Shown: positions 55,262 through 61,789 of the stretch, piece after piece | Numbering within the stretch: position 1 is the stretch's first letter | Layout of the letters: every line of letters starts with the position of its first letter | Assembly: GCF_018390605.1 (NCBI RefSeq) | Contig: NZ_JAHBGD010000027.1 | Location: forward strand, 1-64,000 | From: Ancylobacter defluvii | GTDB lineage: Bacteria; Pseudomonadota; Alphaproteobacteria; Rhizobiales; Xanthobacteraceae | DNA: 64,000 bases | Direction of reading: 5' to 3' | The notes under the pieces: model-generated | Database searches by the model: none | Seen by the model: only the letters and a program-made list of their open reading frames with translations | Told to the model about the DNA's origin: nothing | Made by a program: the position numbers and the translations under genes

Positions 55262-55495
55262 ATGAAAGCGCTCGAACAAGCAGCCCGTCGTATCTGCGCT
55301 CTCGACCTCGCAGCGGCCGGAGCCGATGCCGATGAAATCCCGGCGATGGTGGACCGCTATTGGCCAGTTGTTGCTAATGAAGCCCGCGAAGGCGTGGTCG
55401 TCATTGGCGAGTGGCCGTTCACCGTCGAAGAGATTGCCGCTCTTACTGCTGAGTATGAGAAGCTCGTGCCAATCCACGGCGAAAACGCGCAGTAG
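55262..55495 (+). CDS. Small hypothetical protein (77 aa)
   Basis: 77 residues beginning MKALEQAARRICALDLAAAG followed by ADADEIPAMVDRYWPVVANE and EIAALTAEYEKLVPIHGENA. The mainly helical, even composition looks like a real protein. The last 53 bp overlap the 3' end of the convergent topoisomerase gene, so antisense effects are possible. The 268 bp before it holds no recognised feature. No family is known to me. Confidence 0.55.
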   Translation: MKALEQAARRICALDLAAAGADADEIPAMVDRYWPVVANEAREGVVVIGEWPFTVEEIAALTAEYEKLVPIHGENAQ

Positions 55496-56588
55496 CTGCC
55501 TTTGAAGAACCTGTTGGCACCTTGACGTGGCCGGTCGGGATTGGCGGGGCGGGCCTGGAAGGGTGGCAAGCATTGCTGCTCAGAAGACGGGCCAGCAGTT
55601 GCGCGCGGGCAGTGGCGGATCGCGGCGGTTGACCAACCTTGCCAAGTTTGCCGCTCTCGAAGGCGGCGATCACACTGTCATGAACATAGCTGGTCCGGCA
55701 GACGGTGAGCGTATTGGCGAGTTCATCCGCCAGTGGTGCGATGGCCTCACGTATCTGCCGCCGCCTCCCGCGCTGGCTCGTCTCCGGTTCCAGCCGGGCG
55801 AGTTCGTCGAGCACGCCGAGTGAAGCGGTTAGCGTACGGAAGTCCTTCAGCGAGATGGACTGGCCGCTGACCGTCTTCAGGAAGGCGTTCACCTCGTTCG
55901 CCCGCACGGCATGCACGGCGCTGTTGGCATCGCGATGCTGGAACAGGCGCGGCCCGGGGATCGCCTTCAGCCGGGTCAGGGCTCCGGCCAAATCCGCGTT
56001 GCGAACCTGCTTGCGGATGTCCTTACCGCCTTTTCCGGTGAAGGCGATGGTCACTTCCTCGCCATCGATCCGCACATGCGACTTGAGCAACGTGGTGGCG
56101 CCCCGTGTGCCGTGCTCTTCGGCATATTCGTCGCTACCGGCGCGTATAGATGTAAGAGCGACGAGTTGCACAACGGCGGCGAACGCAAAACGTCTATCGC
56201 AACCGGGCCGCCGCAGCTCCTGGCGCACAGAACGCAGGACCGCCGGCAGCGCCTGCGCGAGGCTGGAGAGGCGGAGCGCCTTCAACCTCTCGCGTATCAG
56301 CGTCCAGTCTGGGTGATAGCGGTATTGCAGGCGCCCGGCGGCGTCCTCGCCGACCGCCTGCAGATGGGCGCGCGGATCAGCGGCAAAGCGTACATTCCGG
56401 TACGCCGGAGGCACCGACAGGCGCTTCAGCCGTGCGATGAGCTGCACTTCCTTCACCGGCTTGCCATCCCCGGTCTCATAACTGAAGCCGCGTCCGCGGA
56501 GCCTACGGCGGATGGTGAGCTCGGCGGGAGAGATAATCCGCAGATTGAAACGGCGCGCCAGGCGCCCGATGGTAGTCTTCTCAGCCAT
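55443..56588 (-). CDS. DNA topoisomerase IB (poxvirus type)
   Basis: 381 residues from the ATG at 56588. The N-terminal beta domain (IRRRLRGRGFSYETGDGKPV then LIARLKRLSVPPAYRNVRFA) and YRYHPDWTLIRERLKALRLS lead to the catalytic domain: Arg in LTSIRAGSDEYAEEHGTRGA, Lys in IAFTGKGGKDIRKQ, Arg in LKDFRTLTASL, and the tyrosine nucleophile most likely in TVCRTSYVHDSVIAAF. It relaxes supercoils by a 3'-phosphotyrosine intermediate. Bacterial copies are often stress-associated, as its neighbours are here. Confidence 0.9.
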   Translation of the reverse strand: MAEKTTIGRLARRFNLRIISPAELTIRRRLRGRGFSYETGDGKPVKEVQLIARLKRLSVPPAYRNVRFAADPRAHLQAVGEDAAGRLQYRYHPDWTLIRERLKALRLSSLAQALPAVLRSVRQELRRPGCDRRFAFAAVVQLVALTSIRAGSDEYAEEHGTRGATTLLKSHVRIDGEEVTIAFTGKGGKDIRKQVRNADLAGALTRLKAIPGPRLFQHRDANSAVHAVRANEVNAFLKTVSGQSISLKDFRTLTASLGVLDELARLEPETSQRGRRRQIREAIAPLADELANTLTVCRTSYVHDSVIAAFESGKLGKVGQPPRSATARAQLLARLLSSNACHPSRPAPPIPTGHVKVPTGSSKAATARFRRGLARASHTQQ

Positions 56589-56702
56589 GATCGATGAAAG
56601 CGCCTCCGCACGCCGACCTAAACGTTGGCGCATCCGACGCGTTCCAGCCGGAACGTTCCTACCCGCCCATGCGTTCTTTCCCGAACGAAATAGGAGGGCA
56701 CG

Positions 56703-57132
56703 ATGGACGAGCGAGAACACCTCATTGGCGAGCGCGCACCGCCTCTGGGAGGAGGAGGGATGTCGCGAAGGGCGGGCAGAGGAACACTGGTTCCAGGCCA
56801 AGGAGCTCGTGGCGATGGAAGAACGCCCCGATACCTTCAGGCCGGTCGATGCCGCCGAGGCGCCGCCGGTCGAGCCTATCGATGCGCTAGCCAATGCCGG
56901 CGATTTCCCCACTTTGGCCGACCAGGGCGGGATGCAGCTCCCTCATCGACCCGAGCCTGCCCTGGATGTCGACCCCAATGTGGCGATGGCCGGCGAGAAC
57001 GAGCCAATGAGCGAAATCGACACCATACATCGCACGCTTGAGGTGCCTCCGGCGCACCGCGGAAAGACATCGCCAGCGGGCGACCCGGTCGGCACGATGA
57101 GCGGCGACGCCGGCCGCCGGCTGCGCAGCTAG
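56703..57132 (+). pseudogene. DUF2934-family protein with apparent frameshift
   Basis: An ATG at 56703 after a GGAGG site starts MDEREHLIGERA. The DUF2934 continuation AHRLWEEEGCREGRAEEHWF is in the next frame, from about 56737, and runs on as EERPDTFRPVDAAEAPPVEP to LRS at 57132. A one-base difference near the GCGCGCACC stretch would join them into one protein of about 140 residues. Alternatively a TTG near 56728 serves as start. DUF2934 proteins are short stress-associated proteins of unknown role. Call it frameshifted unless resequenced. Confidence 0.6.
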
Positions 57133-58550: not shown

Positions 58551-58585
58551 GTGTTCTGACCATTTCTGCCACATGGTCAGAACAC
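58551..58585. repeat. Perfect 13-bp inverted repeat with 9-bp loop
   Basis: GTGTTCTGACCAT (58551-58563) and ATGGTCAGAACAC (58573-58585) are exact reverse complements. The right side faces the convergent-strand ScpB gene end and the left side abuts the small ORF start at 58549. It may be an operator, a transcription terminator stem for either strand, or a recombination-related site. Confidence 0.8.
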
Positions 58586-58675: not shown

Positions 58676-59371
58676 TCAAATCATGTCGTCGGCGTCGACC
58701 TCCTCGTCCGGATCCTCATCGCCTCCGTCCCCGCCCATGAGCCCGAGCGGGATATCCCCCGCCAGCAGACTGTCCTTGCTGAGCAGGCCGGCATCCTCGA
58801 GCGCCTCCATGTCCGGCAGGTCGCGCAGGGTGTCGAACCCGTAATGAGACAGGAATTCCTTGGTCGTCACATAGGTGTAGGGCGCGCCGGGCTGCGGCGA
58901 CCGCGGCCCGGCGGCGATGAAGCCCAGCCGCCGCAGATGGCCGATGGTGTCGCGGCTGATCTCCTTGCCGAAGAAGGCGCTGAGTTCGCCGCGGGTGATC
59001 GGCTGGAAATACCCCACACACAGCAGCACCAGCGCCTCGGAGGGCGACAGCGGCTTGGGATCGTCCGTGCCGAGCCCGGTGGCCACCTGGATCGCCTCGG
59101 CAAAGCTCTTACGAGTGCGGTGCTGCCAGCCGCCGGCGACCGCCACTAACTCGTAGGGCCGGCCGCGCAGCTCGGCGCGGATGTCGTCGATCAACAGGTC
59201 GAGGCTGCAGTCGCGGCCGACCACCCGGGCCAGCACCTCCCGCGTCACCGGCTCCGGTGAGGCGAAGATCACCGCCTCGACCCGACCCATCCATTCACGC
59301 CAGCGCAGCGCGGCCGGCAGATGCCCGAGCTCGGCGTCGAAGCTCACCGGGGTTTTCGTGCGCCGCCCCAT
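58676..59371 (-). CDS. ScpB-like segregation protein (SMC-Scp subunit B family)
   Basis: 231 residues. Two winged-helix domains typical of ScpB are seen: VEAVIFASPEPVTREVLARV (the usual E-A-x-LF-x-S-x-x-P start) and a second from LSPSEALVLLCVGYFQPITR with RDTIGHLRRLGFIAAGPRSP and TTKEFLSHYGFDTLRDLPDM. A 25-residue acidic tail (GGDGGDEDPDEEVDADDMI) ends the protein. Chromosomal ScpB pairs with kleisin ScpA and Smc. No scpA is nearby; instead the gene follows DUF1403 with one base between stop and ATG. It is probably an accessory paralogue with a plasmid-maintenance role. Confidence 0.85.
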   Translation of the reverse strand: MGRRTKTPVSFDAELGHLPAALRWREWMGRVEAVIFASPEPVTREVLARVVGRDCSLDLLIDDIRAELRGRPYELVAVAGGWQHRTRKSFAEAIQVATGLGTDDPKPLSPSEALVLLCVGYFQPITRGELSAFFGKEISRDTIGHLRRLGFIAAGPRSPQPGAPYTYVTTKEFLSHYGFDTLRDLPDMEALEDAGLLSKDSLLAGDIPLGLMGGDGGDEDPDEEVDADDMI

Positions 59372-59372
59372 C

Positions 59373-60326
59373 TCAAAGGCCGTAGAGCTTGAAGCTGGAG
59401 CGGCCGGTGAGCTCGCGCACCGCTCCCAGCGTCTCGAGCCGTTCGAACAGCCGCCGCGCGCCCCAGCGCGACAGCTTTGGCGTGGTCAGCGTGCCCGGTA
59501 CCGCGTCGTCGTCGAGCAGTCGGGCGATCGCCTCCCCTGCCCCCTTGGCCCGCAGTTTTGGGGCGACCGCCTGCAGCCGGCCGGCACGCGGCGCGATCTC
59601 GGCGGCACAACGCAGGACCCGCGCCGAGGCCTGCGCCACAGCGAGGCAGACCGCGGCGTCGAAGCCGTCGTCGGCGGGGCGCAGCCGCCCTCCCCGGCCG
59701 GGGCCACGGAAGGCGGAGCTCTGTGCCTCGCCCATCAGCAACGGCACCGGCAGCGGCCAGCGCAGCCGCAGCGCCAGCACCTGCTCGGCCAGCCACCAGC
59801 CGAGCAGCCCGGCGCCCGGCGCCGCGGCGTCGATGGCGCGAAGGATCGCCGCCGCAGCCAGTGGCGCCGGACGAGCGGCCCCGAGCTCGCGATCGATCTC
59901 TTCTGGAAGAGCGGCCAGTTCCGGGCTCCAGCCGATGCCGAGCAGTCCGCAGGTCGATTGAAGGCTCGTCACATCGGCACCTGGGGAGCGCTCGGCGAGG
60001 CGCCGCCAGGCAGCCAACAGCCGGCCGGCGGGGCCGGGATCGCCATCGGCGGGACGCAGCATCCAGGCATCGCGCAGGGCGGCTTCGTCCTCCGCCCGGC
60101 CAGCGTAGCGCGCCGCTGCGGCGGCGCAGCAGAGCGCCAGCCGTGCGCGCCACGCGCCGGCCCAGGGCGGGTTCGCTCGCACCAGATTGTCGAGGGAATT
60201 CAATGCCGCGCCGGCCAGGAAGGCAGCCTCAGCCAAGTCCGCCACCGACCCACGCGGGATCGCCCAGCCCGGCACGGCCGGGACAGTAAAGGGCCCCGGA
60301 GGAGGCGGAATCAGCGCAACATCCAT
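59373..60326 (-). CDS. DUF1403-family protein
   Basis: 317 residues, starting MDVALIPPPPGPFTVPAVPG then WAIPRGSVADLAEAAFLAGA and LNSLDNLVRANPPWAGAWRA, the DUF1403 pattern. The body is Ala/Leu-rich and helical. The C-terminal 50 residues (LTTPKLSRWGARRLFERLET then LGAVRELTGRSSFKLYGL) look like a winged helix. It sits one base before the ScpB-like gene, divergent from the serine recombinase. A helical protein with a C-terminal winged helix next to ScpB recalls the ScpA kleisin layout; that it is a divergent kleisin is my hypothesis, not a known fact. Confidence 0.8.
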   Translation of the reverse strand: MDVALIPPPPGPFTVPAVPGWAIPRGSVADLAEAAFLAGAALNSLDNLVRANPPWAGAWRARLALCCAAAAARYAGRAEDEAALRDAWMLRPADGDPGPAGRLLAAWRRLAERSPGADVTSLQSTCGLLGIGWSPELAALPEEIDRELGAARPAPLAAAAILRAIDAAAPGAGLLGWWLAEQVLALRLRWPLPVPLLMGEAQSSAFRGPGRGGRLRPADDGFDAAVCLAVAQASARVLRCAAEIAPRAGRLQAVAPKLRAKGAGEAIARLLDDDAVPGTLTTPKLSRWGARRLFERLETLGAVRELTGRSSFKLYGL

Positions 60327-60856
60327 GGTGGAAGCCTACTCGCGTGGTGCGCTTATATCCAGTAAAAAGCGCATTAACCGCACGCCATGTCTGGGAATGA
60401 GGACGACCGATAATGTTGCATTATCGGTCGTTATACCGAGGCAGCTGGAGAAGCCTGATATTGCTCGGCCGAGACGGCGGGATAGGCCGAAAGCGCTGGA
60501 TTTCGACGTCTTCCTCATCCCGATTGAGCGGATTCCTCATCCTAGTTCGGCGGATGCTCCGTCCAGATCGGCGGACTTTCACCCTCGCCTGCCCGGTATG
60601 ACGGCTCGCCGGCGGCGTCGACGAGCCGCGAACGCCGTTTCCGCTGCCCTTTGGACCGAGAACGCTCTGAAAATGGCGAAAATCGCCTCAGAGCCCCATA
60701 GGCGGCGATTCTGGATCTCTCCATCCTTGGCTCATCCAATACGCCAGATCGGCCTCTATGACTCTCTGAGGCGGCCGATAAAACGCGCCTGCAAAGGACC
60801 GTTTCTTGACATCTGTCGAGAGTGTACAATAGGCATGAATCGTCGCCGGAAAGCCT
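60327..60856. other. Intergenic region between DUF1403 and the serine recombinase
   Basis: 530 bp with no supported gene. It contains the 29-bp palindrome at 60403-60431 and a repeated TTCCTCATCC (60512-60521 and 60533-60542). A TTGACA at about 60806 lies some 50 bp before the recombinase ATG, but no matching -10 is convincing. It must hold the divergent promoters and could hold a recombination (res-like) site. Confidence 0.45.
60403..60431. repeat. 29-bp perfect palindrome in the divergent region
   Basis: ACGACCGATAATG (60403-60415) and CATTATCGGTCGT (60419-60431) are exact reverse complements around a 3-bp centre TTG. It lies 77 bp upstream of the DUF1403 ATG. Size and symmetry fit an operator for a dimeric regulator or a crossover-type site for a serine recombinase. 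Confidence 0.85.
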
Positions 60857-61789
60857 ATGGCCTCACCTTACGCCTCCCCTCCCCGGCCGATCCGCCGCCT
60901 GATCGGCTATGCCCGCGTCTCGACCGAGGAACAGGCGACCGATGCGCAGGTCGACGAGCTGCGCGCGGCCGGCTGCCAGATCATCCATCAGGAGCACGGC
61001 TCCGGCGCCTCGCGGGCCCGGCCGGTGCTGGCCAGGCTGATGCGCGAGCTTGGCGCCGGCGATGTCCTGGTGGTCGTGCGCCTCGATCGCCTCGCCCGCT
61101 CGGTCAGCCACCTCCTCGCGGTGATCGAGGATCTCGAGGAGCGCAAGGCGCATTTCCGCTCGCTGCGCGACCCGATCGACACCTCGACGCCGCAGGGCAT
61201 GTTCTCGCTGCAGGTGCTCGGCGCCGTTGCCCAGCTCGAGCGCGCCCTGATCGCCGAGCGCACCAAGGCCGGCATGAAGGCGGCCAAGGCCCGCGGCAAG
61301 CTGGCCGGCAACCCTGGCCTGCGCGAGCGCCGGCCGGAAGCCATCCGCGCCGCAGCGGCGGCGCGCCAACGGGTCTATGTCGGCGACCTGATCGCCTCGG
61401 CCTCGACCTGGCTGCCGATCGTAAGACGGATGCGGCCGCAGCACAGCTGGGACGACGTCGTGCGGGTGCTGAACTATCGCGGCCAGAGTTGGACCATCGA
61501 GAAGCTGCGGCGCGCCGTGCACCGGCTGGTGAGCGAGAGAATAGCGGAAGCCGAGTTGCTCCAGCGCTCGCCACGGCGGCCGCCGGAGGACCGGCTGATG
61601 ACCCTCGTCGCCGGCATCGCCATCGCCGACCCGGATCTCAGCCTGCGCGACATCGCCGCCCAGCTCGAGCGGATGCGGGAGCGCACGCCGCGTGGCGGGC
61701 GACAATGGGCCGCCTCCTCGGTGAAGTCATTGCTGGACCAGGCGCGCCGGCTGGGCTTAATCGTCCCGCAGCCGCAGGAGGATGCATGA
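60857..61789 (+). CDS. Serine recombinase (resolvase/invertase family)
   Basis: 310 residues from the ATG at 60857, preceded by GGAAAG. The catalytic domain shows RRLIGYARVSTEEQATDAQV with the nucleophile Ser22, then VLVVVRLDRLARSVSHLLAV and LRDPIDTSTPQGMFSLQVLG and LERALIAERTKAGMKAAKAR, the long E-helix. The C-terminal 150 residues exceed a plain resolvase (about 185 in total) and contain further helix-turn-helix-like parts (DVVRVLNYRGQSWTIEKLRR; LSLRDIAAQLERMRERTP; VKSLLDQARRLGLIVP). Not long enough for a large phage-type integrase. Divergent from DUF1403-ScpB. Confidence 0.88.
   Translation: MASPYASPPRPIRRLIGYARVSTEEQATDAQVDELRAAGCQIIHQEHGSGASRARPVLARLMRELGAGDVLVVVRLDRLARSVSHLLAVIEDLEERKAHFRSLRDPIDTSTPQGMFSLQVLGAVAQLERALIAERTKAGMKAAKARGKLAGNPGLRERRPEAIRAAAAARQRVYVGDLIASASTWLPIVRRMRPQHSWDDVVRVLNYRGQSWTIEKLRRAVHRLVSERIAEAELLQRSPRRPPEDRLMTLVAGIAIADPDLSLRDIAAQLERMRERTPRGGRQWAASSVKSLLDQARRLGLIVPQPQEDA

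Follow-up and report, generated by a model that had tools for sequence, protein, structure and literature searches.

A candidate plasmid dimer-resolution module pairing a Fic-like DUF1403 protein with a plasmid-type ScpB in Ancylobacter defluvii

Gene layout and replicon of the module

We analyzed a stretch of 64 kb (the window) from the start of contig C20 (220,189 bp) of Ancylobacter defluvii; our subject is a module near the far end of this window, in which a gene for a DUF1403 protein is followed after a single base (59372) by a gene for an ScpB-family protein and preceded by a composite site (60347-60432) made of a core palindrome and an inverted repeat. A serine recombinase gene diverges from this pair and a tyrosine recombinase gene lies farther along the contig; within the window, the serine recombinase and other genes separate the core from the latter (Table 1). 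A preliminary description made from the letters alone had placed the divergent trio and the one-base gap correctly, and it had rightly noted an acidic tail on ScpB, though this tail is poorly conserved in an alignment of 11. The extra C-terminal residues that it gave to the serine recombinase are present but longer than its estimate of 120-150, since the Pfam Resolvase match (146 bits, residues 16-148 of 310) leaves about 160 residues behind it. The description made no mention of the composite site, and the tyrosine recombinase gene lay beyond the letters available to it.

Table 1. Features of the module and related genes on contig C20
Feature	Position	Strand	Remarks
ScpB-family protein (KITE, tandem winged-helix), plasmid-type paralogue, acidic tail	58676..59371	-	231 amino acids; Pfam SMC_ScpB
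DUF1403 protein, Fic-like fold without Fic catalytic motif, C-terminal winged-helix-like segment	59373..60326	-	317 amino acids
Putative -10 element TAGGCT	60333..60338	-	conserved TA.gCT in upstream alignments
Accessory inverted repeat GTGCGGTT...AAGCGCAC, probable DUF1403 operator and accessory site	60347..60383	.	version matches DUF1403 helix-turn-helix version
Xer-like core palindrome AACGACCGATAA-TGCAACA-TTATCGGTCGTC, probable tyrosine-recombinase crossover site	60402..60432	.	inner part single in genome
Serine recombinase, RinQ-like by where a 78%-identical protein lies in p42d	60857..61789	+	310 amino acids; Pfam Resolvase; frequent neighbour, not constant part
Tyrosine recombinase, Xer-like	C20:68130-69218, beyond the 64-kb window		Pfam Phage_integrase
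repA, repB, repC	C20:71573-75291		about 11 kb from the module

The suggestion of a plasmid-borne, maintenance-type module also held, as repA, repB and repC lie together on C20, the combination by which a repABC plasmid is recognized, and the repC family (PF03428) has its single match of the whole genome there. A search for the last 30-200 bases of the contig in its first 5 kb, made for circularity, gave no match. ScpA, whose absence from the module the preliminary description had pointed out, has no match on C20; the sole match of the genome lies on another contig (C8), 462 bp from the match of the chromosomal ScpB. C20 is thus a plasmid-type contig with an extra ScpB, in a host where ScpA and ScpB are available.

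A core palindrome and an inverted repeat precede DUF1403

ScpB was found directly downstream of DUF1403 on the same strand in 78 of 78 loci, bearing out the supposed fixed pair (this count omits L002, a copy of L015, and a few other plasmids were entered twice). The core, CCGATAA-N7-TTATCGG, lies about 105 bp before DUF1403, has a 7-bp spacer flanked by arms of 10-12 bp, and most commonly takes the form GWCCGATAA-TGCAA-N2-TTAYCGGWC. Its inner pattern occurs once in the 5.28-Mb genome, with 0 matches for the backwards control. Selected solely by TAA-N7-TTA between -125 and -50, the core was recovered in 62 of the 78 loci (50 distinct sites), compared with 0 of 869 same-length stretches inside DUF1403 genes, and all 50 distinct sites have a central AA. 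The nine outer pairs match above shuffled arms (7.12 vs 6.30, 0 of 5000 shuffles), relatedness not being removed by the shuffling; the pairing test held with a pairing-blind choice of sites, the choice in an earlier test having partly relied on pairing. A fuller listing of 63 entries puts 40 of them at an offset of -106, and named core-bearing records include Hyphomicrobiales and Rhodobacterales (e.g. L022, L062). With the site region as query, blastn matched 167 plasmids; of the 60 places listed, 59 are free of annotation and the remaining one runs into an annotated DUF1403 feature. Both the spacer length and the TAA/TTA edges are in keeping with tyrosine-recombinase sites. Among the 52 loci having an id and a contig place, the core was present in 38 of 41 with a tyrosine recombinase within 15 kb, vs 4 of 11 in which it was farther away or absent (p 2e-4).

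Ancylobacter polymorphus ZM13 (H1, H2, H3, H52, H62-H65) has four co-resident plasmids, each with DUF1403 and a serine recombinase 93% identical to that of the window, and in genome G386, with coordinates largely as in ZM13, the core spacers are TGCAACA (L053), TGCAAGA (L056), TTCAATC (L061) and TTCAATC (L041).

Of 67 distinct upstream sequences, 55 have a recognizable inverted repeat between the core and the DUF1403 start, about 20-57 bp before the latter and over the likely promoter; allowed to span 31-38 bp, it covers 36 bp in 54 of them and 35 bp in one. It comes in two versions, TGCG...GCAC (once GCTC) and GGCG...GCCG; mixed ends were allowed for, and none was seen among the 55 repeats. 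The version agrees with that of the DUF1403 helix-turn-helix in 55 of 55 cases, R[WF] going with TGCG-type repeats (24/24) and DR (30) or RA (1) with GGCG-type repeats (31/31). On quick trees of 43 of the 65 repeat-bearing loci, non-identical and with all three proteins in hand, the version changes once on the DUF1403 tree, which was built with the helix-turn-helix removed, four times on that of ScpB and five times on that of the recombinase (three forced by starred branches), so the repeat is co-inherited with the DUF1403 version. The loci L004 and L058 illustrate this: their recombinases are 99% identical, their ScpB proteins 79% and their DUF1403 proteins 44%, and their repeats differ. Binding of the repeat by DUF1403 would be the simplest reading of these patterns and is the safest part of our proposal. 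The putative -10 element stands only 6 nt before the ATG, which suggests a leaderless DUF1403 mRNA.

A tyrosine recombinase accompanies DUF1403 on plasmids

The tyrosine recombinase of C20 is 72-83% identical to four plasmid copies and matches Pfam Phage_integrase with 53 bits. The residues R, K, HxxR, H and Y, which we take to be catalytic, are kept in 39 of 39 sequences. Its scores are far under the equivalog cut-offs of XerD (53.6 of 329.6 bits) and XerC (50.3 of 335 bits). Matches at E 1e-5 were obtained in 680 plasmid records for DUF1403 and 757 for the window ScpB, many of them near-copies and some of the ScpB matches being of the chromosomal type; the tyrosine recombinase was matched in 699 plasmid records (E 1e-60), with a genus spread similar to those of DUF1403 and ScpB.

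Among 121 relatives, DUF1403 was found in 13 and the tyrosine recombinase in 16, both together in 13, the recombinase alone in 3, DUF1403 alone in 0 and neither in 105; repC was matched in all 13 DUF1403-positive relatives. A second family of 198 genomes gave the same picture, with DUF1403 in 40, the tyrosine recombinase in 35, both in 34, DUF1403 alone in 6, the recombinase alone in 1 and neither in 157, counts that take in all rows (Fisher 6e-31). Positions were compared for 42 of that family's 57 DUF1403 matches, after removal of short, broken or weak ones, and for all 47 recombinase matches; in these 42 places, the recombinase was on the same contig in 37 and divergent from DUF1403 at less than 300 bp in 27. 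It is divergent within 2.5 kb in 44 of the 78 loci, many of which have only 1.5 kb of flank, and pRL10, pTiBo542 and NLR16a p4 have an annotated tyrosine recombinase directly divergent from DUF1403. Five plasmids chosen from the recombinase matches all carry a divergent DUF1403-ScpB pair with adjoining repA and repB. In four of these repC is annotated; the fifth, pYEE3, has an unnamed helix-turn-helix protein there instead, and its DUF1403 is separated from the recombinase by a toxin-antitoxin pair. A class-wide genome search matched 4 of 385 genomes, our own included, 3 of them above the cut-off, while two scans of viral contigs, with the DUF1403 and the ScpB alignment, found no relative. TniA/TniB/TniQ-type transposon genes adjoin the module in four annotated plasmids (L020, L021, L025, L066); Tn5053-type elements target resolution sites, which would fit this position.

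The serine recombinase is less regular. It was detected in 5 of the 121 relatives (E 1e-60), and as a constant partner of DUF1403 it was ruled out, being present in 4 of 13 positive relatives vs 13 of 13 for the tyrosine recombinase. A divergent copy lies within 2.5 kb in 19 of the 78 loci; the three genes of the preliminary description thus recur together in a frequent arrangement that is not the core one. The window protein is 78% identical to the recombinase just downstream of repABC on p42d, which by position would be RinQ, its record naming it only recombinase. RinQ of Rhizobium etli p42d is a serine recombinase needed for incompatibility (2002 work as cited in a passage of PubMed Central article PMC10194956). 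The likeness to that system lies in this identity; no DUF1403-ScpB pair stands beside the p42d gene. Upstream of the p42d recombinase (L023, 4408-5325), a further ATAA-N7-TTAT palindrome with other arms lies beside the RinQ-like gene, and another, again with other arms, lies between the tyrosine and serine recombinase genes of NLR16a p4 (L025). Palindromes of this kind by RinQ-like genes possibly form a second site class.

These palindromes would suit the idea that the serine recombinase makes its crossover at the core, the tyrosine enzyme being a bystander, as would the layout of the window, where the core has DUF1403 on one side and the serine recombinase on the other, half-sites that resemble those of Tn3-type resolvases, and four loci (L062, L070, L087, L088) with a serine recombinase just past the tyrosine one. 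We consider this highly improbable, because 8 of the 12 relatives with a core at their DUF1403 loci are without such a serine recombinase (E 1e-60), the spacer has an odd length (7), separate conserved blocks lie upstream of the serine recombinase and the core is retained where a tyrosine recombinase is near.

DUF1403-ScpB might instead be merely an autoregulated operon, e.g. a worn-out Fic toxin or regulator, lying beside an independent recombinase and its site. An operator-like repeat over the likely promoter fits such an operon, as does the recognition of the repeat in 6 of 11 loci with the recombinase far or absent. However, the near-fixed distance from core to start across two orders, the strong co-occurrence of DUF1403 with the tyrosine recombinase and the constancy of ScpB make this distinctly unlikely.

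DUF1403 resembles Fic proteins in fold

The window protein matched Pfam DUF1403 with 340 bits (cut-off 31.8). An AlphaFold model made from 12 sequences (predicted local distance difference test score, pLDDT, 80; last 14 residues below 50) is helical with a winged-helix-like C-terminal end. In a structure search, this model matched Fic proteins with Z up to 15.8 over residues 28-308 (255 residues aligned). There were 45 chains at Z of at least 8; all listed rows at Z of at least 5 were Fic, and the first non-Fic row had Z 3.4. Foldseek against Fic gave a best E of 0.013, a probability of 1.00 and a template modelling (TM) score of 0.54. The relaxed Fic motif HPFx[D/E]GN[G/K]R had 0 matches in 40 DUF1403 proteins (some N-terminally cut), Pfam Fic did not match the window protein, and comparison with two Fic proteins from plasmids gave no sequence-level link. 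The predicted link to Fic is structural, not sequence-level, and since the fold is present but the motif absent, we describe DUF1403 as Fic-like in fold and do not file it as a Fic enzyme.

The last 50 residues weakly resemble the HTH_13 end of one RHE_PE00001 protein (P 5e-4, probability only 31%), and HTH_13 appeared weakly in the Pfam scan of the window protein (E 0.07). As described in passages of PMC2686095, helix-turn-helix domains, DUF1612 among them, occur in fusion with Fic proteins, and AvrB has the Fic fold but not the motif. DUF1403 shares with Fic/Fido proteins bearing a C-terminal helix-turn-helix (DUF1612/HTH_13, RHE_PE00001) the nearly whole-length fold and the winged-helix type of C-terminus; it differs from them in lacking HPFx[D/E]GN[G/K]R and in its pairing with ScpB and a recombination-type site. 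On pNGR234a (L024, 8094-9245), an RHE_PE00001 protein (DUF1612 + HTH_13) is divergent from a RinQ-like recombinase by repABC, in the place that DUF1403 takes elsewhere.

The fold bears directly on the preliminary description, which saw in DUF1403 a kleisin-like substitute for ScpA, acting together with ScpB and host Smc, and left the resolution of multimers to the serine recombinase. The fixed pairing with ScpB, the helical fold, the winged-helix-like end that it had read from the sequence and that the model reproduces, and the repABC contig all accord with this account, yet we give it hardly any credence. The Fic fold covers nearly the whole chain; Pfam ScpA did not match DUF1403, a profile alignment to a single plasmid ScpA reached only E 0.34, the history of the DNA repeat follows that of DUF1403, and the serine recombinase is no regular companion. 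The structure rows hold no kleisin, which does not exclude one. Fic fold, absent motif and an HTH_13-like end therefore make a kleisin role unlikely, and on the fold and the ScpA comparisons made here we do not favour DUF1403 as a kleisin. What may survive of that account is multimer resolution by a recombinase.

The plasmid ScpB and the host condensin

The window ScpB matched Pfam SMC_ScpB with 102 bits (cut-off 27.4, residues 30-187) and four solved chains with E 5e-14 to 1e-7, two of which are named ScpB or segregation and condensation protein B. It is 34% identical to the chromosomal ScpB and falls below the NCBIfam ScpB equivalog TIGR00281 (57.7 vs 89.2 bits), so its score does not place it as an orthologue of the condensin subunit encoded on the chromosome. 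Compared over largely the same loci, the plasmid ScpB is more conserved than DUF1403. The module thus shares one ScpB-family component with the Smc-ScpAB condensin and KITE systems, whereas its contig encodes no kleisin and the neighbour of its ScpB is a Fic-fold protein. An Acetobacter aceti plasmid (L028, 7953-13420) carries ScpA, a tyrosine recombinase and an ScpB of its own inside 6 kb, a stretch in which DUF1403 was not matched; it is perhaps a kleisin-bearing cousin of the module.

A role in handling host Smc deserves weighing here. The module could be a loading or unloading point for host Smc-ScpA, at which the plasmid ScpB, placed by DUF1403 and the recombinase, would take over from host ScpB or compete with it. 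Members of the ScpB family partner kleisins, the host genome has an ScpA and an ScpB of its own, the Acetobacter plasmid combines ScpB and ScpA with a tyrosine recombinase, and the plasmid ScpB is better conserved than DUF1403. In Bacillus subtilis, XerD is a sequence-specific SMC unloader (passages of PMC12322038). This precedent comes from another phylum, the module is without a kleisin and the two ScpB proteins are only 34% identical, and we regard such a role as rather unlikely. A specific version, in which DUF1403 on the repeat would hold ScpB as a dock for host ScpA-Smc, and the recombinase would act only once Smc had aligned the sites, or would unload Smc, appears unlikely as well; the module would then act as a condensin port encoded by the plasmid and anchored to DNA through a repurposed Fic fold.

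A proposed dimer-resolution system

Based on these results, we propose that the module is probably a plasmid dimer-resolution system, consisting of a Xer-like recombinase and its core, with DUF1403 and ScpB as an accessory complex and DUF1403 as its own repressor. The dedicated tyrosine recombinase would cut and rejoin DNA at the single CCGATAA-N7-TTATCGG site. DUF1403 would bind the inverted repeat, which keeps a fixed spacing between the core and the DUF1403 start codon, and ScpB, encoded one base downstream, would join DUF1403 there. On the analogy of PepA and ArgR, which act beside Xer cores on small plasmids, a complex of DUF1403 and ScpB may order the DNA beside the core in such a way that only two sites on one dimer recombine, with the repeat serving as an accessory to recombination. 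DUF1403 may also repress its own synthesis, because the repeat overlaps its likely promoter.

Plasmid dimers are resolved at cer and psi by Xer recombinase with the accessory proteins PepA and ArgR. Like these sites, the module has a single core with ATAA...TTAT arms and accessory DNA at a near-fixed, one-sided distance, so that the cer-type combination of core and accessory sequence at fixed spacing is found here too, and its DNA-binding accessory proteins may likewise double as regulators. One site beside repABC with conserved DNA at near-fixed spacing is, by this analogy, the anatomy of dimer-resolution sites. It differs from cer and psi in that a single recombinase is plasmid-encoded, the accessory genes lie beside the site, and their products are Fic-fold and ScpB-family proteins rather than PepA and ArgR. 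With XerCD-dif the module shares a tyrosine recombinase with the full catalytic set and TAA/TTA half-site edges at the spacer, but its site is near-symmetric with a 7-bp spacer, and its one recombinase is plasmid-borne and below the XerC/XerD equivalog cut-offs. According to the abstract of PMC11724359, circular replicons need dimer-resolution systems, and enterobacterial replicons larger than 250 kb use XerCD with FtsK.

Several observations weigh against this proposal. No core was found in 16 of the 78 loci and no repeat in 12 of the 67 upstream sequences. Five of the 42 second-family DUF1403 places are on a contig without such a tyrosine recombinase; contig C4 of G386 is also without it and has another tyrosine recombinase, and so is the fragment C15 of G414. 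Resolution could also be the work of the serine recombinase that many plasmids have. Confidence in the modelled DUF1403 C-terminus is low, and the ScpB model is poor (pLDDT 57). The expectation that the core would follow the recombinase tree was unsupported, the one variable base changing 3 times on the DUF1403 tree, 4 times on that of ScpB and 4 times on that of the recombinase; assignment of the core therefore rests on geometry, position and co-occurrence. Finally, because the repeat adjoins the DUF1403 gene, plain linkage would also co-inherit the two, the version switch being a single event on the DUF1403 tree. Linkage is countered by ScpB, which is encoded right behind DUF1403 and does not have the same history as the repeat.

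If the dimer-resolution reading is right, a cassette lying beside replication genes on hundreds of large plasmids of soil, plant and marine bacteria probably keeps each plasmid single and inherited. Plasmid records with DUF1403 include pTiBo542, pRL10 and roseobacter plasmids, often by repABC, and their annotation of the trio has so far been only integrase, DUF1403 and ScpB. Our analysis offers a testable function for DUF1403 together with a defined site and operator, points by its model to a Fic-type fold in DNA binding, and places a member of an SMC-accessory family in a recombination module without kleisin. In kind, we read the module as a plasmid site-specific recombination system; its accessory proteins are, to our knowledge, new among such systems. 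The open-licence PMC papers searched held nothing on DUF1403, on ScpB with repABC or on the module; the searched passages of a Dinoroseobacter shibae plasmid paper (PMC9426580) name neither ScpB nor a recombinase, and those of an Agrobacterium replicon paper treat chromosomal XerCD (PMC12153318).

Two further features lie close to the module. A topoisomerase IB gene is found a few kb away (window 55443-56912, minus strand), and an 11-bp inverted repeat, GTTCTGACCAT...ATGGTCAGAAC (window 58553-58583), without a T run and not of the Xer-like type, stands about 100 bp past the ScpB stop.

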